Made by a program: the position numbers and the translations under genes. Positions 32,297 through 39,912 of a stretch of DNA of 64,000 bases are shown here, piece after piece (position 1 is the first letter of the stretch; each line of letters begins with the position of its first letter). This DNA comes from Bradyrhizobium sp. CCGB12. Its GTDB lineage: Bacteria > Pseudomonadota > Alphaproteobacteria > Rhizobiales > Xanthobacteraceae. Location of the stretch: NCBI RefSeq assembly GCF_024199845.1, contig NZ_JANADO010000001.1:8172001-8236000 (forward strand). The letters run 5' to 3'. The notes below the pieces were generated by a model. That model saw nothing but the letters and a program-made list of their open reading frames with translations. It had not been told where the DNA came from and ran no database searches.

Positions 32297-33091
32297 TCAC
32301 AGGATGGAAGCCCGCCAGAACGCCGTCTGCAGCGGCAGCTGATGCCGGATCATCGCGACACCATCGACGACCTTCAATCCGCGGGCGGCGCAGGCCTCCA
32401 TGAAGCCGGTGCGCCGCGCGGCTATGATGTCAAATACTGCGCAATCCCCCGGCAGCTTGGCCGGGTCCATCGGCAAGGCATCGGTCACGCGCAGGCCGAG
32501 GGATGTCGCGTTGACGCACAGTCCCGCGTCGTCGAAGCGCTCCTCGAGGCTCAGGTCGAGATCGGGGAATTGCCCGCGCAGCTTTGCCGCGAGCGCCTCG
32601 ACCGGGCCGGGCACCTCGTTGAGGATGCGCAAGCGCTTCAAGCCGGCCGCTACCAAGGCGTGGCAGATCGCGCGGCCGGCACCACCCGCACCGATCACGA
32701 CGGTTCGGCGTTCAGGGTCGAAGATGCCGGCTTCGCGTGCGGCGTTCAAAAAGCCGCCGCCGTCGAAGGACTCGCCGACGAGTTTTCCGCTCGCCTCTAG
32801 TCGGATGGTATTGACCACGCCCTCGAACTTCGCGGCAGGCCCGACCTCGTCGCAGAGTTCGAACGCGGCCGGCTTGTGCGGCATGGTCAAGTTGAAGCCG
32901 GCGGTGCTCGGCGACTTCGCCAGCGCGCGGATCGTCTCGGCGAGATGCTTCGGCTCGACATCCATTGGCACCAGGTGCCAGTCGAGGCCCTGCTCCTCGA
33001 AATAGGGCGTGTAGTAGCGGGGAGCCGCGACGTGGCCCGCCGGGTGGGCGAAGATGAAGACGGTGCGCGTTGCGCCGGTCGGAAGCTTCAT
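32297..33091 (-). CDS. Shikimate-dehydrogenase-like oxidoreductase with altered substrate site
   Basis: A 264-residue AroE-fold protein. It keeps the catalytic lysine (NLTMPHK, Lys73) and aspartate (ESFDGGGF, Asp110), GVVNTI, and the NAD(P) loop VVIGAGGAGRAI. The N-terminal loop that in AroE reads HSxSP and binds the shikimate carboxylate is here HVAAP (residues 20-24), so both serines are lost. It is therefore unlikely to be the housekeeping shikimate dehydrogenase. It starts 4 bp after the ABC permease stop and belongs to that operon, where oxidising a transported polyol or acid would make sense. Start ATG 33091 follows AGGGATGAG. Confidence 0.82.
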   Translation of the reverse strand: MKLPTGATRTVFIFAHPAGHVAAPRYYTPYFEEQGLDWHLVPMDVEPKHLAETIRALAKSPSTAGFNLTMPHKPAAFELCDEVGPAAKFEGVVNTIRLEASGKLVGESFDGGGFLNAAREAGIFDPERRTVVIGAGGAGRAICHALVAAGLKRLRILNEVPGPVEALAAKLRGQFPDLDLSLEERFDDAGLCVNATSLGLRVTDALPMDPAKLPGDCAVFDIIAARRTGFMEACAARGLKVVDGVAMIRHQLPLQTAFWRASIL

Positions 33092-33095
33092 GATC

Positions 33096-33923
33096 TCATC
33101 CCTTGACGGCACCCGCCGTGAGCCCGCTGACGAGATAGCGGCGCACCGCGAGCGAGAAGATCAGCACCGGTGCCATCACCAGCGAGCCGCCGGCGGCGAT
33201 CTTGCCCCATTCCCAGCCTTCGTAGTTCATGAAATTGACGACGGCGACCGGTGCGGTGCGCGCATTGGTTCGGGTCAGGATCAGCGCGAAGAAGAAATCG
33301 TTCCAGGCATAGAGGAAGCACAGGATCGCGGTAGCGGCGATGCCGGGCGTCACCATCGGCAGCACGATCTTGGTGAACACTGTGCGCGTGCGCGCGCCGT
33401 CGACCAGCGCCGCCTCTTCCAGCGAGACCGGGATCGTGTCGAAAAACGGCTGCATCATCCAGATCACCAGCGGCAGGTTGAAACTGGTATAGACCAGAAC
33501 GAGGCCCGTGATGGTGTCGAGCAGCCCGATCCACCGATAGAACAGGAAGAACGGGATCGTGAACGCGATCGGCGGCGCCATGCGCGTCACCAGGATCGCA
33601 AAGGAGAGGCCATGCTTGCCGCGCCCGGCCCAGCGCGACAGCGCATAGGCTGCGGGCACGCCGAACAGCAGCGCCAGCGCGGTCGAAAGCGAGGCGCTGA
33701 GCAGGCTGTTGACGAAGGACGCCGAGAACGCGCTATGCCAGAGCGAGACGTAGTTCTCGAGCGTCGGCGTGAAGATCAGCGGCGGGGGGAACTGCAGGAT
33801 CTGGTCGTTGGTCTTGAAGCTCATCTGCAGCAGCCACAGGAACGGCGAAAGCAGGATGAGCAGCGTGACCGTAATCGCGATCAGCCGGCCGGGCGTGGCC
33901 TTGCGGAGGGAAGACTCGCTCAT
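33096..33923 (-). CDS. Carbohydrate ABC transporter permease (MalG-like)
   Basis: A 275-residue inner-membrane permease with six hydrophobic segments. The cytoplasmic EAA loop reads EEAALVDGARTRTVFTKIVLP, the contact point for the ATPase. C-terminal LIFSLAVRRYLVSGLTAGAVKG is typical of MalG/CUT1 proteins. The ATG at 33923 overlaps the stop of the upstream permease gene by four bases, so translation is coupled. Works with the MalF-like permease and the Tat-exported binding protein encoded upstream. Confidence 0.93.
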   Translation of the reverse strand: MSESSLRKATPGRLIAITVTLLILLSPFLWLLQMSFKTNDQILQFPPPLIFTPTLENYVSLWHSAFSASFVNSLLSASLSTALALLFGVPAAYALSRWAGRGKHGLSFAILVTRMAPPIAFTIPFFLFYRWIGLLDTITGLVLVYTSFNLPLVIWMMQPFFDTIPVSLEEAALVDGARTRTVFTKIVLPMVTPGIAATAILCFLYAWNDFFFALILTRTNARTAPVAVVNFMNYEGWEWGKIAAGGSLVMAPVLIFSLAVRRYLVSGLTAGAVKG

Positions 33924-34816
33924 GCCAGTGCCGCCTTGCGCCGGCCCATCCAGACCAGGCCCAGGCTGATGCCGCAGACCAGCAGCAGCATCACCACCGT
34001 GACCGCGCTGGAATAGCCGATCTCGTTGGTGTCGAAGGCGAGGAGATACGCATAGTAGTTCGTGACTTCGGTGACGGTGCCGGGTCCGCCGCCGGTCAGG
34101 AGAAAGATCAGCGGGAAAGCCTTGACGCTGTCGATCAGGCGGAACATGCCTGATATCACCAGGATCGGCGTGATGAAGGGCAGGGCGACGTACCAGAATA
34201 TCTGGAGCTTGTTGGCGCCGTCGACGAGAGCGGCCTCCGAATATTCGTCGGGAATGGTCTGCAGCGCCGCCAGTACCATCAGGAAGGTGAAGGGCAGCCA
34301 TTCCCAGGTGTCGGCGATGATGATCGAGGTCAGCGCGAAATCGACGCTCGAGGTCAGTGCCGGCAGCGTGAAATGCAGCGCTTGCGCGGCGTAATAGAGC
34401 GGGCTGATGTCGGGCGCGTAGATCAGCTTCCAGATCACCGCGACTACGATCGGCGGCAGCACCATCGGGATCAGGAAGAAGGTGCGCGCGAATTCGACGA
34501 AGCGCGACGGCACGTTCAGCAGCAGCGCCAGCAACATGCCGAGCAGCACCTGGAACAGCACGCTTGCGACCGACAGCTTGGCCTGCACGGCCAGCGAGTT
34601 GACGAAGCGGGGGTCACCGGGCAGCAAGGCATAATTGCGAAACGGATCGCTGAAATCGGTGGCCGAGCCCGGCGTCGTCAACTGGAACGGGGTCAGGCTG
34701 GTCACGACGAGATAGATCGCCGGCAGCACGGCGACTGCGAACAGCACGATCAAACTCGGCGTGAGCGCGAAGGCGATGAACCTTCGGCGCTCATCGTCAA
34801 TTCCGCTCTCGCTCAA
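33920..34816 (-). CDS. Carbohydrate ABC transporter permease (MalF-like)
   Basis: A 298-residue CUT1-type permease with six membrane helices. Family marks are the first helix FALTPSLIVLFAVAVLPAIYLV, the periplasmic LVTSLTPFQLTTPGS region and the EAA loop SEAALVDGANKLQIFWYVALP. Its start overlaps the binding-protein stop by four bases and its stop overlaps the next permease start by four, making a tight three-gene unit. No ATP-binding subunit is encoded in this operon. Confidence 0.93.
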   Translation of the reverse strand: MSESGIDDERRRFIAFALTPSLIVLFAVAVLPAIYLVVTSLTPFQLTTPGSATDFSDPFRNYALLPGDPRFVNSLAVQAKLSVASVLFQVLLGMLLALLLNVPSRFVEFARTFFLIPMVLPPIVVAVIWKLIYAPDISPLYYAAQALHFTLPALTSSVDFALTSIIIADTWEWLPFTFLMVLAALQTIPDEYSEAALVDGANKLQIFWYVALPFITPILVISGMFRLIDSVKAFPLIFLLTGGGPGTVTEVTNYYAYLLAFDTNEIGYSSAVTVVMLLLVCGISLGLVWMGRRKAALA

Positions 34817-36165
34817 AGTTTTGTCCCGGCGCGGCGGAGTGCGGCGATGGCCTGATCCTGGGCCGCGCTCATCGCGTCCTTTGCCGGCAGCTGGCCGGTG
34901 GCGACCTGCTCGAACGCCTTGTTGAGGACGTCGCCGACGATCGGGAACTCCTTCGAGGTGCGGTAAGCCATGTAGTTCTCGCCCTTGCCGGGCAGCTCGA
35001 GCACCTCAAGATAGAGCGCGCCGAGGTCCTGGCCGTTTACCGTATTCAACTTGCGATACTCGTCGCTGGTGATGATCGAGCGCCGACACACCGAGGAGTG
35101 ACCGTGCTCCTTGACGAGCTTCATCGAGATCTCGGGGCTGAGCGCCCATTTGATGAATTCCCAGGCTGCCTTCTGGTTTTTGGCGTTCTTGGGAATGCCG
35201 AGGCCCTGGCTGTTCGAGGCCGGATAGTCGTGCACGGGACCGGCCGGGGAGCGCACCACGCGCGCGGTGTCCTTCACCTTGCTTTCTTCGGAGAGCAGGA
35301 TCGGCGTCACCCAGGCGCTGGAATGAATGAAGATATTGGCGCGGCCGGTCAGCATCGCCTGCCGGGCCTGGTCCTCGGTGTAGGTCAAGACGCCCTTCGG
35401 CGCGCTCTTCAGGAGGTTCGCATAGAACTCGACGCCCTGGATCGCCTCGGGCGTATTCAGCGCCGGCATGACGTCGCCGGGCGGCTTCTTGAAGATGTTG
35501 CCGCCGAAGCCCTGGATGTAGGGCGGCAGATTCCAGTTGTGGAGGAACCACGACACCATGCCGCTGACGCCGTCGGTGCCGTTGATCTCGGCGCAGACCT
35601 GCTGAAGCTCGGCGAAGGTCTTTGGGATCTTCAGCCCCTTCTTCTCCATCAGGTCCATGCGCGACAGCCCCATCAGCATGGCGCCGCCTTCCCAGGAGTA
35701 GCCGTAGGTGGCGCCCTTGGCGTCGCGATAGGGCACCTGCGCGCCATCGACGAAATCCTTCGGATTCCAGTCGGCCGGCGTCAAATTGGCGTCGCCCGTG
35801 AACTCGTCGAGATTGGCGAGCAGGCCTGCCGCGATCCAGCGGGTCGCAAGCGTGAAGGTGACGTTGACGAAGTCATAGGCCGAGCCGCCCGAGGACAGTT
35901 CGAGATTGGCCTGCTGGTTGTAGACGGGCAGGGCCGAGAGCTGGAGGTCGACCTTCATGCCGGTCTTTTCCTCGAACTCGGGGATGTACTTTTGTAGCAG
36001 CGTGAAGAAGCGGTGCTGGAACGAGGCGCCGTGCAGCGTCACGCCGGCAAAGGGTTTGGTCTGCGCGATCAGTGGCGCCGGGAATGCCGCGAGCGCCGCG
36101 GTGGCGGCACTGGCTTTGAGTAATTTGCGGCGGGTGAGCGAACTCGCGCGCGATGCGGTCTTCAT
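34813..36165 (-). CDS. Extracellular solute-binding protein, family 1 (Tat-exported)
   Basis: A 450-residue sugar-type binding protein. The signal region SLTRRKLLKASAATAALAAFPAPLIAQ contains a twin-arginine motif (TRRKLLK), so it is probably folded before export, unlike most relatives. The mature part (VTLHGASFQHRFFTLLQKYIPEFEEKTGMKVDL, TLATRWIAAGLLANLDEF, YTEDQARQAMLTGRANIFIHSSAWV, NSQGLGIPKNAKNQKAAWEFIKWAL) is the standard CUT1 fold. ATG 36165 begins the signal sequence; an upstream start at 36180 would add five residues. It lies 31 bp after the FadR-type gene. Confidence 0.93.
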   Translation of the reverse strand: MKTASRASSLTRRKLLKASAATAALAAFPAPLIAQTKPFAGVTLHGASFQHRFFTLLQKYIPEFEEKTGMKVDLQLSALPVYNQQANLELSSGGSAYDFVNVTFTLATRWIAAGLLANLDEFTGDANLTPADWNPKDFVDGAQVPYRDAKGATYGYSWEGGAMLMGLSRMDLMEKKGLKIPKTFAELQQVCAEINGTDGVSGMVSWFLHNWNLPPYIQGFGGNIFKKPPGDVMPALNTPEAIQGVEFYANLLKSAPKGVLTYTEDQARQAMLTGRANIFIHSSAWVTPILLSEESKVKDTARVVRSPAGPVHDYPASNSQGLGIPKNAKNQKAAWEFIKWALSPEISMKLVKEHGHSSVCRRSIITSDEYRKLNTVNGQDLGALYLEVLELPGKGENYMAYRTSKEFPIVGDVLNKAFEQVATGQLPAKDAMSAAQDQAIAALRRAGTKL

Positions 36166-36196
36166 GCTTGTCTCCCTCAACTATTGTTTGCCGGTT

Positions 36197-36958
36197 TCAA
36201 CGCGTCCGTCTGGTGCGGGCGTTCTCGTCCTCGGTGTCTTTCTTCTGGCGCGACATGGCCGTGACGATGTTCCCTTCAGTGAGATCCATCAGCTTGTGCA
36301 TGGCCTGGCGCGCGCCGTCTGAATTGCGCGCCCAGATCTCGTCGAGCACCGCGCGGTGATAGGGCAGGCTTTTCCGCGGCGCGCCGGGATTCTTGCTCGA
36401 CATATTGAATGACATCCGCAAGGCCGCGGCGACTGTCGCGCCGAAGGCGATTAGGAAATCGTTGCCGGTGGCGATCAGGATGCCGCGATGGAACTGCAGG
36501 TCGGGCTCGGCATAGGCGACGCGATCCATACCGGCCGCGTCCATGCCGCGATAGGCGCGTTCGATCCGGGCAAAATCCTCGTCGGTGCCGCGCACCGCGC
36601 AGATCGCGCAGGCCTCGGGCTCGACGATGCGGCGGACCTCCATGATCTGCTTGGCGAACTCCTGTGTCGGCAACGCCGACAGCGTCCAGTTGAGCAGCTC
36701 CTCGTCGAGCATGTTCCAGTCGAAGCGCGCCCGCACATGCGTGCCGGCTTTCTGCTTCGAGGCGATCAGCCCTTTCGCCTTGAGCAGCGACAGTGCCTCG
36801 CGGATCGAGGCGCGGCTGACATCGAAGCGCGACGCCAGCTCGATCTCGCGCGGCAGCGTCGTGCCCTCACGCCACACGCCGGTCAGGATCATCCGCGCCA
36901 CCTCACGGGCGACCACGGCGCTCGATTGCGGGTTGTCCTTGCTAGGAGGTTTTACCAC
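36197..36958 (-). CDS. GntR-family (FadR subfamily) transcriptional regulator
   Basis: A 253-residue regulator. The winged helix is VAREVARMILTGVWREGTTLPREIELASRFDVSRASIREALSLLKAKGLI; the FCD effector domain follows with EVRRIVEPEACAICAVRG, DLQFHRGILIATGND and the metal-binding histidine region LPYHRAVLDEIWARN. FCD proteins sense small carboxylates or sugar acids. The longest frame starts with TTG far upstream; the GTG at 36958 (VVKPPSKDN) fits the usual spacing to the helix better, though its ribosome site is weak. It leads the binding-protein/permease operon and is divergent from the sulfatase gene. Confidence 0.88.
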   Translation of the reverse strand: MVKPPSKDNPQSSAVVAREVARMILTGVWREGTTLPREIELASRFDVSRASIREALSLLKAKGLIASKQKAGTHVRARFDWNMLDEELLNWTLSALPTQEFAKQIMEVRRIVEPEACAICAVRGTDEDFARIERAYRGMDAAGMDRVAYAEPDLQFHRGILIATGNDFLIAFGATVAAALRMSFNMSSKNPGAPRKSLPYHRAVLDEIWARNSDGARQAMHKLMDLTEGNIVTAMSRQKKDTEDENARTRRTR

Positions 36959-37065
36959 GTTGATCCCGGATGCGTGGAACAAAATGTCTGATTTATTGCG
37001 AGTGTCAGCGAAGGTGAGTGCAGAATTTGGCTCCCCGAGGCAAAAATAATCAAATCCGCGTCGGT

Positions 37066-37094
37066 TTGACAAGAATTATTATGTCAGACATATT
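37066..37094 (+). promoter_or_regulatory. Sulfatase promoter overlapped by a FadR/GntR-type operator
   Basis: TTGACA (37066-37071) and CATATT (37089-37094) are 17 bp apart. The perfect dyad TATGTC-A-GACATA (37080-37092) covers the spacer end and the -10, and contains the GT-NNN-AC core of FCD regulators. A partial copy ATGTCTGAT lies at 36984-36992, nearer the regulator start. A regulator bound here should block the sulfatase and its own operon until the effector appears. Confidence 0.7.
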
Positions 37095-37130
37095 TCCTGT
37101 AAGAACAACGCCGCGTAGGACAAATCGATC

Positions 37131-38558
37131 GTGACGAAGCCCCACATCATCCTGGTCATGACCGACCAGCAACGTTTCGACACGATCGCGGCGACGGGGC
37201 ATCCCTACATGAAGACGCCGAACCTCGATCGGCTGGTGCGCGAGGGCGTCTATTTCGATAATTGCTTCATCAATGCGCCGAGCTGCGTGCCTTCGCGCGC
37301 GGCGCTGTTCTCCGGCCTCTATCCGCACGCCTCGGGCGTGCTAAAGAACGGGCAGCACTGGCAGAAGACGTGGGTGAGCAATCTTGGCGAGGTCGGCTAT
37401 CACTGCGTCAATGTCGGCAAGATGCACACCATTCCCTATGACGCGAAGGCCGGCTTCCACGAGCGCTTCGTGGTCGAGAACAAGGACCGCTTCTTCGAGG
37501 GGCGCTGGTTCGCCGACGAGCTCGACAAGGCCTTTGCCGCGCACAAGCTGACAAAGCCGTCGCGCGCCGGCTATCGCAGCCTGCCTGACTATGGCGACCG
37601 CATGGGCGCCTTCACCTGGGAGATGCCGAAGTCGCTGCATCCGGACATCTTCGTCGCTGAGACCGCGATGTGGTGGCTGGAGACGCGGCCGAAGCCCGAG
37701 GCGCTGTTCATGCAGATCGGTCTGCCGGGGCCACATCCGCCCTATGATCCCTTGCCGGAATACCTCGAGCACTACCTCGCTCGCAACGACCTGCCGGTGC
37801 CGCAGCCGACCGATGCGGAGATCGAAGGCCTGCCGGCCTATCTGAAAGAGAAGCGCCGCCACGACACCGAGGTCGACCACGATGCGGTGTCATGGAAGCT
37901 CGCACCGACGCATGAAGAGATGCGCCGCCTGCGCGCGCATTACTATGCCAACGTCACCATGATCGACGAGCAGATCGGCCGCCTGATCGAGATGCTGGAC
38001 ACGAAGGGCTATCTCGACAATTGCGTCGTCATCTTCATGTCGGACCACGGCGACAATCTCGGCGAGCACGGCCTCAGCCAGAAATGGTCGATGTACGAGC
38101 CCGTCACCCGCATCCCACTGCTGTTCTGGTCGCCGAGCATATTCTCGGCGGGCCGCCGGATCCGCGAAAAATGCCAGCTGTTCGACCTTGCTCCGACCAT
38201 TCTCGATCTTGCCGGCGCGCAGCATCCAAAGCCGTTCCAGGCGCGCAGCCTGCTTCCGGCGCTGAAAGGTGAGGAATGGAGCGGCCGCGATTTTGTGTTC
38301 AGCGAGCAGGCCGGCGACGTCGCCATGACCGGCGCGCGGCTGATCACCATGGTGCGCGACGACCGCTGGAAGGTCGTGTTCATTCACGGCGCCACGGACG
38401 GACAGCTATTCGACCTCGAGACCGATCCGCTCGAGCAGCGCAATCTCTGGGGCGTGCCCGAGTATGCCGGCACGATCAGCCGCCTGAAGGACGCCTTCAT
38501 CGACTGGCGCCAGAACAGCCTGCTGGAGACGATGGATTTGAACGCGGCGGCGCGGTGA
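37131..38558 (+). CDS. Sulfatase / phosphonate monoester hydrolase family enzyme
   Basis: A 475-residue alkaline-phosphatase-superfamily hydrolase. The active-site signature SCVPSRAALFSG has Cys52, which is expected to be converted to formylglycine. Metal ligands are seen in VMTDQQR (Asp12) and in IFMSDHGDNLGEHG near residue 300; the next conserved block is GKMHTIPYD. No signal peptide, so it acts in the cytoplasm, like the rhizobial phosphonate monoester hydrolases and some sulfatases that follow uptake. It starts with GTG, preceded by TAGGA. Divergent from the FadR regulator; together with the transporter it suggests use of an imported sulfate or phosphonate ester. Confidence 0.9.
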   Translation: MTKPHIILVMTDQQRFDTIAATGHPYMKTPNLDRLVREGVYFDNCFINAPSCVPSRAALFSGLYPHASGVLKNGQHWQKTWVSNLGEVGYHCVNVGKMHTIPYDAKAGFHERFVVENKDRFFEGRWFADELDKAFAAHKLTKPSRAGYRSLPDYGDRMGAFTWEMPKSLHPDIFVAETAMWWLETRPKPEALFMQIGLPGPHPPYDPLPEYLEHYLARNDLPVPQPTDAEIEGLPAYLKEKRRHDTEVDHDAVSWKLAPTHEEMRRLRAHYYANVTMIDEQIGRLIEMLDTKGYLDNCVVIFMSDHGDNLGEHGLSQKWSMYEPVTRIPLLFWSPSIFSAGRRIREKCQLFDLAPTILDLAGAQHPKPFQARSLLPALKGEEWSGRDFVFSEQAGDVAMTGARLITMVRDDRWKVVFIHGATDGQLFDLETDPLEQRNLWGVPEYAGTISRLKDAFIDWRQNSLLETMDLNAAAR

Positions 38559-38565
38559 TTCTTCA

Positions 38566-38788
38566 CCTCGCCCCGCTTGCGGGAGAGGTCGAATTTGCGC
38601 AAGCGCAAATTCGGGTGAGGGGGAGTCTCCGCGGGGAAGGTGAGAGTAGGGCTCGTGGAGAGTCCTCATTCTCCGTCATTGCGCGCAGCGAAGCAATCCA
38701 GACTGTCAATGCGGAAAGATTCTGGATTGCTTCGCTGCGCTCGCAATGACGGTGTGGATGCATTTTGATCCCCCGCAAGCGGGGCGAG
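38566..38788. repeat. Composite repeat: family A nested inside family B, second case
   Basis: Family B arms (CCTCGCCCCGCTTGCGGG from 38566; CCCCGCAAGCGGGGCGAG to 38788) with an inner GAATTTGCGC / GCGCAAATTC hairpin surround a family A palindrome at 38674-38751. The arrangement and the junction sequence match 18510-18720. It lies between convergent genes. Confidence 0.82.
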
Positions 38789-38820
38789 CGAGCGCACCTC
38801 CGCTGCGGATGTAGCTCCAA

Positions 38821-39912
38821 TCACTCCACCAGATACTTCCTCACCGCCGCCTCATCCCACGAGATCCCGTTGCCGGGCTCTTCGCTCGGCAGCGCAAAGC
38901 CGTCCTTGATCGCGAGCCGCGTCGAAAGCACCGCATCGGCCCAGTCGACATATTCCAGCCAGTGCGCGGTGGGCGTCACGCAGAGCAGGTGCGCGCTGAT
39001 CTCCGAGAACAGATGGGTCGACATCTCGATGCCGGCGGCATGCGCAAGCGAGGCGGCGCGGAGCCAGCCGGTGACGCCGCCGATGCGCTGGACATCAGGC
39101 ATCACATAGTCGCAGGCTTCCGCCGACAGTGCAGCCTGCATCGAAAAGGCGCTGTCGAAATTCTCGCCGATCTGAACCGGCGTGCGTAGCGCGTCCGCAA
39201 TGCGGGCACAGCCGGCATAGTCGTCGTGGCGGATCGGCTCCTCGATCCAGGTCAGTCCCTCGTCGTCGAGCATCTCGCCGCGGCGGATGGCTTCGGTGAC
39301 CGTCAGCGCCTGATTGTAGTCGCACATCAGCGTCACCTGGTCGCCGACGGCCTTGCGTACCGCGCGCACGACCGCAAGATCCTCCCGTGCATCGGGCCGG
39401 CCGACGCGAATCTTTGCTGCCCGAAAACCCTCGGCCAGCAGCTTGTGGGCTTCCTCGACCGCCGCGCCCACGGGCATGATGCCGAGCCCCTTCGAATTGT
39501 AGGCGCGCACCGGCTTCGGCGCGCCGCCGAGCAGCCGCGCCAGCGGCATGCCCTTGCTGCGCGCCAGTGCGTCCCACGCCGCCATGTCGATGCCGGATTG
39601 CGCCAGCCGCTGCAGGCCGGCGAGGCCCAGCAGGGTGAAGCGCTGGGCCAGCTTGCGCTCGATCTCGAACGGCAGCAGCTCGTCGCCGGCGACGAGATCC
39701 GACATTTCCGTGACCATCGCCGTCAGTGGCTTCAAGGCAGACGGCGTGATCGAGAACAGATAGGCATGGCCCACCGCGCCCTGGTCGGTCTCGCAGTCGA
39801 TCAGCACCAGCGGCGCCTTTGCGACCGCCCCGGTCGAGGTCTGGAGCGGCAGGTTCATCGGCACGATCACGGGCCGCGCGTGGAAGCGCTTGATGCGGAT
39901 GGTCTCGGTCAT
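38821..39912 (-). CDS. Mandelate-racemase-like enolase-superfamily enzyme (KxR variant)
   Basis: A 363-residue enzyme that aligns with mandelate racemase at a constant offset of three: Lys167 (K164), Asp198 (D195), Glu224 (E221), Glu250 (E247), Asp273 (D270), His300 (H297) and Glu320 (E317) are all present, but the second lysine of KxK is Arg169 (AAKIRVG). Motifs seen: WIEEPIRHDD, VQIGENF, MPDVQRIGGVTGW, MSTHLFSEISAHLL. It should abstract the alpha proton of a carboxylate with the His-Asp dyad; loss of Lys166 argues for a dehydratase or one-sided reaction. Start ATG 39912 follows GGGAGAG. Convergent with the sulfatase. Confidence 0.9.
   Translation of the reverse strand: MTETIRIKRFHARPVIVPMNLPLQTSTGAVAKAPLVLIDCETDQGAVGHAYLFSITPSALKPLTAMVTEMSDLVAGDELLPFEIERKLAQRFTLLGLAGLQRLAQSGIDMAAWDALARSKGMPLARLLGGAPKPVRAYNSKGLGIMPVGAAVEEAHKLLAEGFRAAKIRVGRPDAREDLAVVRAVRKAVGDQVTLMCDYNQALTVTEAIRRGEMLDDEGLTWIEEPIRHDDYAGCARIADALRTPVQIGENFDSAFSMQAALSAEACDYVMPDVQRIGGVTGWLRAASLAHAAGIEMSTHLFSEISAHLLCVTPTAHWLEYVDWADAVLSTRLAIKDGFALPSEEPGNGISWDEAAVRKYLVE

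Follow-up and report, generated by a model that had tools for sequence, protein, structure and literature searches.

A FadR-linked importer and sulfatase gene set of Bradyrhizobium, likely for uptake and desulfation of a small O-sulfated compound

Genes for a FadR-type regulator, a sugar-type binding protein, two permeases, an AroE-like dehydrogenase and a sulfatase lie together in the window (the whole 64,000-nucleotide stretch of Bradyrhizobium sp. CCGB12 DNA that was analysed). On balance, we favour the view that they form a module, controlled by FadR, which takes up a small O-sulfated organic compound and desulfates it; sulfated sugars, polyols and sugar acids are the likeliest candidates. 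The binding protein, after export by the Tat pathway, would capture the compound, and the two permeases would import it with a MalK/UgpC-type ATPase encoded elsewhere. The formylglycine sulfatase would then strip the sulfate in the cytoplasm, after which the AroE-like dehydrogenase may use NAD(P)+ to oxidise what remains of the molecule. FadR would repress both divergent units from two sites in the gap between its gene and that of the sulfatase; either the substrate or an intermediate of its breakdown would release it. Sulfate esters make up a large pool of organic sulfur, and for many bacterial sulfatases no substrate is known. The module offers four linked handles on one: the binding protein, the sulfatase, the dehydrogenase and a regulator whose site is defined.

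Layout and conservation of the gene set

Open reading frames and Pfam families agree with the gene content, order and strands given by an earlier, sequence-only reading of this DNA. The genes of the AroE-like NAD(P)-dependent dehydrogenase (32297-33091), the ABC permeases PermG (33096-33923) and PermF (33920-34816), the binding protein (34813-36165) and the 253-residue FadR (36197-36958) are on the minus strand, separated by short gaps or overlapping. The permease starts are approximate; as called, PermF and PermG overlap by 4 nt. FadR probably starts at GTG 36958 and the AroE-like protein at ATG 33091, in an ORF that opens at GTG 33112. The sulfatase gene (37131-38558, plus strand) is divergent from the FadR operon, and an enolase-superfamily gene (38821-39912, minus strand) is convergent with it. 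The GC content of the module (0.634) equals that of the left flank (0.634) and is close to that of the window (0.646), which rules out a strongly foreign base composition.

Among 117 Bradyrhizobium genomes searched, 13 carry a sulfatase at least 90% identical to that of the window. All 13 also have, next to the sulfatase, FadR, both permeases and the binding protein, the latter again at least 90% identical. The AroE-like gene is present in nine; the similarity search did not find it in the other four. A second survey kept 80 of 118 sulfatase relatives and covered 68 loci outside Bradyrhizobium, some on short contigs. A binding-protein homologue lies near the sulfatase in six of these, all with an AroE-like gene; no such transporter was found near the sulfatase in the other 62. 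The order FadR / SBP-PermF-PermG-AroE-sulfatase recurs in five distant loci (L150, L152, L155, L156 and L157), while in L161 the sulfatase precedes AroE. As called, the AroE-like and sulfatase genes overlap by 4 nt in L152, L155, L156 and L157. Remnants of AroE, sought in nine loci without the gene, were found in one (L144, a 57-residue piece).

Gene maps were drawn with a custom ORF caller and single-linkage clusters, so that starts are approximate, each label comes from one scanned member and FadR is assigned by clustering (the FadR identities quoted below come from a separate comparison). They miss some genes, such as the enolase-superfamily gene of L127, which was found by similarity search. 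Counts are raw tallies, not corrected for shared ancestry, and the two surveys are not independent because several loci are the same genomes (L138/G116, L140/G082, L141/G013 and L145/G043). The expectation that the genes stay together in related genomes was borne out for FadR, binding protein, permeases and sulfatase, whose co-location is confirmed as more than chance. It held in part for the AroE-like gene and failed for the enolase-superfamily gene.

The binding protein matches SBP_bac_1 (PF01547; 118.9 bits, cut-off 26) and the permeases match BPD_transp_1 (PF00528; 60.0 bits for PermG and 71.4 for PermF, cut-off 26.4). This combination is that of a CUT1-type sugar ABC importer, and the best solved relatives of the binding protein are sugar or polyol binding proteins. 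The Tat signal that had been claimed for it is probable: TIGR01409 scores above its cut-off (19.7 against 16.7), although PF10518 falls short (20.3 against 22.7). The earlier reading did not raise the question of the ATPase. ORFs and domain scan gave no ATPase gene among the operon genes, and 21 candidates were found elsewhere in the genome, the best-scoring of which is 53% identical to a protein of L152. We infer that the importer borrows one of them. In L150, L152, L155, L156 and L157, a gene of an ABC-ATPase cluster, labelled from another member that was scanned, adjoins FadR. A wider search with the binding protein retrieved two genomes at 41-42% identity, where permeases flank it and neither AroE nor the sulfatase gave a match; in the family draw, hits came to 4 of 198, all within the genus.

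FadR carries a GntR domain (PF00392; 64.7 bits, cut-off 27) and an FCD domain (PF07729; 87.3 bits, cut-off 24.3), which places it in the FadR subfamily. The palindrome reported earlier between FadR and the divergent sulfatase, ATGTCAGACAT, is indeed there (37081-37091), once in the window against 0.02 expected, and is exact in all 13 Bradyrhizobium FadR-sulfatase gaps. Its 15-nt form, TTATGTCAGACATAT, has one exact copy in the 9.4 Mb genome and one further occurrence with a single mismatch; by eye, the gene at that second place resembles the MarR type. A genome-wide regulon was rejected on this count. A second operator-like site, AATGTCTGATTTATT (36983-36997), occurs once in the window at up to two mismatches (0.02 expected) and aligns in all 13 gaps, with one base different in L101. 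Outside this group, ATGTCnGACAT is also present in L150, L153 and L154, and TGTCTGACAT in L155. FadR identity declines along this series, from 86-96% via 55-63% to 44-45%. The FadR relatives of loci with a TTT transporter are only 26-34% identical, and there the site was mostly not found. These conserved sites would be where FadR binds and represses.

The closest relatives of the transporter belong to a sister group of 13 other Bradyrhizobium genomes, with AroE in 13, FadR in 12 and no such sulfatase. An SsuD-like monooxygenase gene (one member scanned) is found in 12. Since these clusters lack the sulfatase and mostly carry the SsuD-like gene, neither the transporter nor the dehydrogenase is tied to sulfate esters. 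In two of the genomes (G050 and G054) the AroE match has a stop inside the aligned range, and the maps call ORFs of 262-263 residues. A strict search for the operator-like site found none in 12 sister-group genomes tested. By eye, L110 and L112 show partial half-sites.

NMT1-type ABC importers and SsuD-like monooxygenases are typical of sulfur supply. The same sulfatase family adjoins NMT1-type importers in some relatives, and the sister cluster has the monooxygenase. From this it could be argued that the main job of the gene set is to scavenge sulfate from its alkyl or aryl esters of various kinds, and that the carbon skeleton is incidental. We consider this unlikely: the linked regulator is of the FadR type, and its site has a single exact copy in the genome, rather than being a recognised sulfur regulator, and a sugar-type importer and a dehydrogenase are linked as well.

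The enolase-superfamily neighbour and the AroE-like dehydrogenase

The enolase-superfamily gene scores 198.8 bits with MR_MLE_C (cut-off 29.4) and matches mandelate racemase (PDB 1mdl, 1mdr and 1mns) along almost all of its length (E 2e-103). The K-x-R motif noticed earlier is present as KIR, and KIRVG is found in 53 of 54 orthologue loci, some from the same genome, but not in the remaining one. At the position of the second catalytic lysine of mandelate racemase (Lys 166, K166) the window gene has an arginine. The sequence-only reading counted this enzyme as part of the module; it would then be a further catabolic step that dehydrates or epimerises a sugar acid delivered by the dehydrogenase. 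All 13 Bradyrhizobium genomes that carry the module do have an orthologue at least 87% identical. In 11 of 68 distant loci (a raw count) the sulfatase has other enolase-superfamily proteins encoded within seven genes of it, and in L146 a different one (35% identity) converges on the sulfatase. However, the orthologue occurs in 59 of the 117 genomes, 46 of which belong to the 104 without a 90% sulfatase and have no module, and the 12 of these module-free genomes that were mapped keep it in its usual chromosomal surroundings. A single insertion of the module beside an older gene would also yield 13 of 13. Moreover, in G061 the gene flanks the opposite side of the module and in G094 it is five genes distant, no sister-group genome (0/13) carries it at 87%, and it adjoins the sulfatase in one of 68 distant loci. 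Within the window, no exact palindrome was found near it. In view of the module-free orthologues, the maps and the single distant adjacency, we do not regard it as an established member. The gene looks like a neighbour and putative bystander, and a catabolic role in the module is rather improbable.

The AroE-like protein has a Shikimate_dh_N domain (PF08501; 63.1 bits, cut-off 27) and a confidently predicted fold (pLDDT 93.1; best match 4k28). It is below the cut-offs of all 17 NCBIfam models listed, for example TIGR00507 (129.8 against 200.2) and NF001312 (148.3 against 295). V21, K73, N94, D110 and Q251 are invariant in 24 sequences. We take K73 and D110 to be the catalytic lysine and aspartate of shikimate/quinate dehydrogenases, and positions 21 and 23 presumably correspond to the serine pair that binds the carboxylate of shikimate. 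Position 21 is a valine in all 24 sequences and position 23 an alanine in the window protein. Because both serines of this presumed motif are replaced, the protein is probably not a shikimate dehydrogenase. The domain, the conserved lysine and aspartate, and the many relatives that public sources name shikimate dehydrogenase would fit a true shikimate/quinate dehydrogenase acting on an imported, sulfated hydroaromatic acid, but the scores below the curated cut-offs and the replaced serine pair speak against that enzyme, and we rejected it as very unlikely. The relatives so named are flagged here as probably something else. A dehydrogenase for the desulfated carbon skeleton is what we would expect instead. 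The AroE-like protein shares 27% identity with 5-ketofructose reductase (PDB 7cok/7col), described as having an AroE-family fold and a sugar rather than shikimate as substrate (PMC7954740).

The sulfatase

The hydrolase matches PF00884 (158.1 bits, cut-off 25). Its CxPxR motif (C52-P54-R56) is found in 80 of 80 sequences checked, and D12, C52, R56, K97, H99, H202, D305, H306 and K318, which we take to be the sulfatase metal and catalytic residues, are invariant in 43. The model (pLDDT 92.9) matches best to 7oz8. The protein begins with VTKPHIILVMTDQQR, and the stretch ahead of the first strand is too short for a signal peptide. We conclude that it is probably an S1-type formylglycine sulfatase, predicted to be cytoplasmic. 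Because it lacks a signal peptide and is linked to an importer, import would precede desulfation, in line with what had been proposed from the sequence. As for maturation of an S1-type formylglycine sulfatase, the genome has seven FGE-family (PF03781) matches over the cut-off elsewhere. It has 14 sulfatase-family matches, including that of the window.

The phosphonate hydrolase alternative of the sequence-only reading lost ground: a PMH/PehA-type enzyme that hydrolyses phosphonate or phosphate esters would explain the similarity to PMH (2w8s, E 9.9e-40; Foldseek rank 22), but is highly improbable given that sulfatases match better in both sequence and Foldseek, that the PehA model (NF045661) scores 181.3 bits against a cut-off of 900, and that other sulfatases lie near 28 of the 68 non-Bradyrhizobium relatives. 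FGE genes near 17 of these 68 do not decide between the two, since PMH also carries formylglycine.

Relatives of the sulfatase adjoin other importers as well (TTT, NMT1-type ABC and MFS). Neighbours of near relatives, scanned as single representatives, include a regulator with a sugar-binding domain, a sugar MFS transporter, a LacI regulator, and gluconolactonase-like, xylose-isomerase-like, Gfo/Idh and galactarate-dehydratase-like genes. A small sulfated sugar, polyol or sugar acid would suit these surroundings. Counting against it, the neighbours of the module that were annotated include no glycosidase or lyase, so that no polysaccharide source is visible.

Relation to known systems

A literature search found nothing pairing an AroE-like protein with a sulfatase, nothing on catabolism by a cytoplasmic sulfatase and nothing relevant on a sulfatase with TTT and formylglycine. 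We tentatively raise the possibility that sulfated monosaccharides, polyols or sugar acids are broken down by an undescribed catabolic route: a cytoplasmic sulfatase would be followed directly by a dehydrogenase of AroE fold whose specificity has moved away from shikimate. In the same idea, a FadR-type regulator and a sulfatase may form a portable core that different bacteria have combined with importers of different kinds (sugar ABC, perhaps TTT).

By sequence (E 8.8e-59) and by fold, the closest solved structure to the window sulfatase is BT1918, an S1_46 GlcNAc-3-O-sulfatase (PDB 7oz8; 30% identity), described as periplasmic (PMC10154612). In the alignment, the residues E111, R112, N117 and K118, invariant in the family of the window sulfatase, are unmatched in BT1918, whereas E116 and R120 are matched. 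The choline sulfatase BetC, solved from Sinorhizobium, has a similar fold, but choline sulfatase was rejected for the window protein at the TIGR03417 cut-off (211.6 against 433.45).

Systems that combine ABC import with desulfation in the cytoplasm are known; the present gene set and its substrate appear not to have been characterised. The Smon0120-0127 cluster of Streptobacillus moniliformis resembles the window module: it pairs a sulfatase with an ABC importer for a sulfated sugar. Its authors predicted that sulfatase to be cytoplasmic, and they describe a glycosaminoglycan cluster with lyases and a GH88 hydrolase (PMC5430744). In the window module no lyase or GH88 enzyme was identified; an AroE-like dehydrogenase and a FadR regulator are found instead.

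Organization of the module within Bradyrhizobium

The FadR regulator gene (36197-36958) opens a minus-strand run that continues with the genes of the Tat-type binding protein (34813-36165), the permeases PermF (33920-34816) and PermG (33096-33923) and, last, the AroE-like dehydrogenase (32297-33091). FadR and the binding protein gene are about 30 nt apart and the remaining junctions overlap or almost touch, in agreement with the single operon proposed in the sequence-only reading. The sulfatase gene (37131-38558) is divergent from this operon, and the GC content of the intervening gap is 0.448 versus 0.646 for the window. The genome holding the window (9.4 Mb) contains 14 sulfatase-family matches, including this one; judged by protein similarity and gene neighbourhood, the nearest relatives of the window belong to Bradyrhizobium. 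No ATPase gene was found among the operon genes by gene calls and a family scan of the window. The ATPase-cluster protein of a Variovorax locus (L152) gave 21 matches at 1e-60 in the genome, the top-scoring one being 53% identical. Because these ATPases are present while the operon has none, the importer likely shares an ATPase encoded elsewhere in the genome.

At a threshold of 1e-60, sulfatase matches were found in 15 of 117 Bradyrhizobium genomes, 13 with at least 90% identity and two with 47-53% in other settings. In all 13 genomes of the first set, a binding protein of at least 90% identity is encoded within a few kb of the sulfatase, and the gene maps show FadR, the binding protein and both permeases beside it. 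The proposed grouping of these genes is thus kept in related genomes (13/13); the AroE-like gene was found in nine of them and not in the remaining four. At one locus (L144:4666-4833), the search for the AroE-like gene recovered only an N-terminal piece of 57 residues (79%). A record named Frankia sp. RB7 (L140) shows a Bradyrhizobium-type locus with the same synteny and a 94% sulfatase, and is probably misnamed.

A sister group of 13 further genomes has the binding protein (81-84%) with the AroE-like gene (79-83%) and no module sulfatase; in 12 of the 13 maps, FadR and the binding protein gene point away from each other. Transporter, AroE-like gene and FadR thus form a unit able to do without the module sulfatase. 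One additional genome carries a binding protein at 51% with permeases; AroE is absent. An SsuD-like flavin monooxygenase cluster gene (one member scanned) lies near the transporter in 12 of the 13 sister genomes. These loci (L110-L115 and L117-L122), which pair it with transporter and AroE-like genes, mostly add quinone-oxidoreductase-like and DUF2889 genes (one member each scanned). The sister-group cluster suggests a sulfonate-linked version of the system.

Relatives beyond the genus and operator-like sites

A scan of one genome per species (84,980 species) yielded 118 sulfatase relatives. The 80 loci kept comprise 12 of Bradyrhizobium type, among them the look-alike record, together with 68 from elsewhere. 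Up to seven genes away from the sulfatase, the FadR cluster was found in 12/12 and 29/68 loci, respectively, the binding protein in 12/12 and 6/68, the AroE-like gene in 6/12 and 8/68 (one of the eight at 32% identity) and an enolase-superfamily protein in 11/12 and 11/68. The corresponding counts were 0/12 and 17/68 for TctC, 1/12 and 17/68 for the formylglycine-generating-enzyme (FGE) cluster and 0/12 and 28/68 for another sulfatase. The order FadR / SBP-PermF-PermG-AroE-sulfatase is complete in five loci, from a Rhodobacteraceae member (L150), Variovorax (L152), a Burkholderiales MAG (L155), a beta MAG (L156) and a gamma MAG (L157), and an ABC-ATPase cluster gene adjoins FadR in all five. 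In an alpha MAG (L161), the sulfatase precedes AroE. AroE and the sulfatase overlap by 4 nt in four of those loci.

A tree built from 85 sulfatases places 18 of the 19 rows carrying a module-type transporter in one group of 23 (support 100/99), whose remaining five rows have a different sugar-type ABC transporter. Outside that group, many rows neighbour TTT, MFS or NMT1-type ABC genes; 20 of the 85 rows have no such neighbours. Random draws showed relatives of the sulfatase, AroE-like and binding proteins to be rare: one non-genus sulfatase at 1e-130 (48%) among 385 genomes of the class, and two non-genus binding proteins (41-42%) but no AroE-like protein above 37% outside the genus among 398 genomes of the phylum. 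Among 198 genomes of the family, no binding protein was found outside the genus.

At L159, L163, L171, L180 and L185, the sulfatase family stands beside TTT importer genes, a FadR relative, further sulfatases and enolase-superfamily genes, with a galactarate-dehydratase-like gene in L163, L171 and L180. Such TTT-type loci perhaps encode a larger sulfated sugar-acid pathway. Five loci (L168, L173, L178, L179, L183; Rhizobium, Tianweitania, Aureimonas, Faunimonas and a Rhizobiales bacterium) have a second sulfatase paralogue and an FGE-cluster gene beside an NMT1-type ABC importer. A same-class 2.6 Mb genome (L242) carries a 44-48% sulfatase relative amid several sulfatase-like stretches within 20 kb.

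The FadR-sulfatase gap of the window contains the palindrome ATGTCAGACAT and a second conserved site. ATGTCAGACAT occurs in all 13 Bradyrhizobium gaps and in 12/12 named loci, partly from the same genomes; the 15-nt palindrome form exists as a single copy in the genome. ATGTCnGACAT is exact in L150, L153 and L154, L155 carries TGTCTGACAT, and looser variants occur in L152, L156 and L161. In L157, GGTCGGACATAT is readable, yet inside the called FadR gene and hence unlisted in the site survey; in L158, TGTCAGACAT is located outside the FadR gap. A clear palindrome site is missing in most TTT loci. Across the compared loci, the core GTCnGAC occurs 43 times in 67,307 bp of intergenic sequence and 117 times in 490,739 bp of genes. 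Its density is thus higher between genes, but these counts are uncontrolled for composition, and a single site shared by near-identical Bradyrhizobium loci contributes 12 to the 43. We infer that FadR binds at these operator-like sites.

The mandelate-racemase-like neighbour

The enolase-superfamily gene (38821-39912), convergent with the sulfatase, had been counted as part of the module. Orthologues of at least 87% identity were found in 59 of the 117 Bradyrhizobium genomes, one of them partial: in 13/13 module genomes, 0/13 sister-group genomes and 46 of the 104 genomes without a 90% sulfatase. In 12 of these 46 carriers, which were mapped (L127 by search-match coordinates, not a gene map), the module genes are not beside it and at least one usual neighbour is. 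It lies on the opposite side of the module in one genome (G061) and five genes away in another (G094). Its company with the module is explained by one insertion event next to an older gene. Membership fits the 13 module genomes but not the 46 module-free carriers nor the two shifted arrangements, and a functional link with the module is improbable. A 520-aa family gene, resembling by eye an adenylate-cyclase-type sensor and absent from the window map, adjoins the enolase-superfamily gene in L098, L099, L125, L128 and other loci.

The encoded protein aligns with mandelate racemase almost end to end and has Arg at the Lys166 position. In the alignments, its best match, 1mdl, likewise has Arg at 166 and 1mdr has Lys; we take 1mdl to be the K166R mutant. 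The two bases of the racemase are Lys166 and His297, according to PMC9835602. Since one of them is replaced by Arg, racemisation as such would be doubtful. The KIRVG motif, with a natural Arg at this position, is kept in 53 of 54 orthologue loci, and roughly half of the Bradyrhizobium genomes covered encode this close relative of mandelate racemase.

Enzymes, substrate and related systems

The sulfatase has a complete catalytic signature and, as claimed earlier and confirmed by a sequence check, no signal peptide. Its best solved match (confident model, pLDDT 92.9) is BT1918, a GlcNAc-3-O-sulfatase of S1_46, at 30% identity; the window sulfatase falls below the curated cut-offs of named sulfatase models. 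Residues E111, R112, E116, N117, K118 and R120, invariant in 43 relatives, may line the substrate pocket. The genome contains seven FGE-family matches, so formylglycine maturation would be possible in the host.

For the AroE-like protein (model pLDDT 93.1), the top match is 4k28, followed by shikimate dehydrogenases and 5-ketofructose reductase. Lys73, Asn94, Asp110 and Gln251 are invariant across 24 relatives, but the serine pair binding the shikimate carboxylate is replaced, in part by an invariant Val21. Work on 5-ketofructose reductase (PMC7954740) shows an AroE-type fold able to act on a sugar; in the same paper, a relative resembling shikimate dehydrogenase had no activity on 5-ketofructose. 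Enzymes of this kind are also described as reducing iminosugars promiscuously (PMC9881201).

Genes near the sulfatase relatives (single representatives scanned) include a sugar-binding-domain regulator, sugar MFS transporters and gluconolactonase-like, xylose-isomerase-like, Gfo/Idh and galactarate-dehydratase-like genes. TTT importers and FCD regulators point towards acids. Stated as narrowly as these data allow, the substrate would be an O-sulfated small molecule: a sugar, a polyol or a sugar acid. No published work on this gene combination was found in open-licence PubMed Central text; ABC uptake of sulfated sugars, linked to a sulfatase for which a cytoplasmic location is predicted, is already described (PMC5430744).
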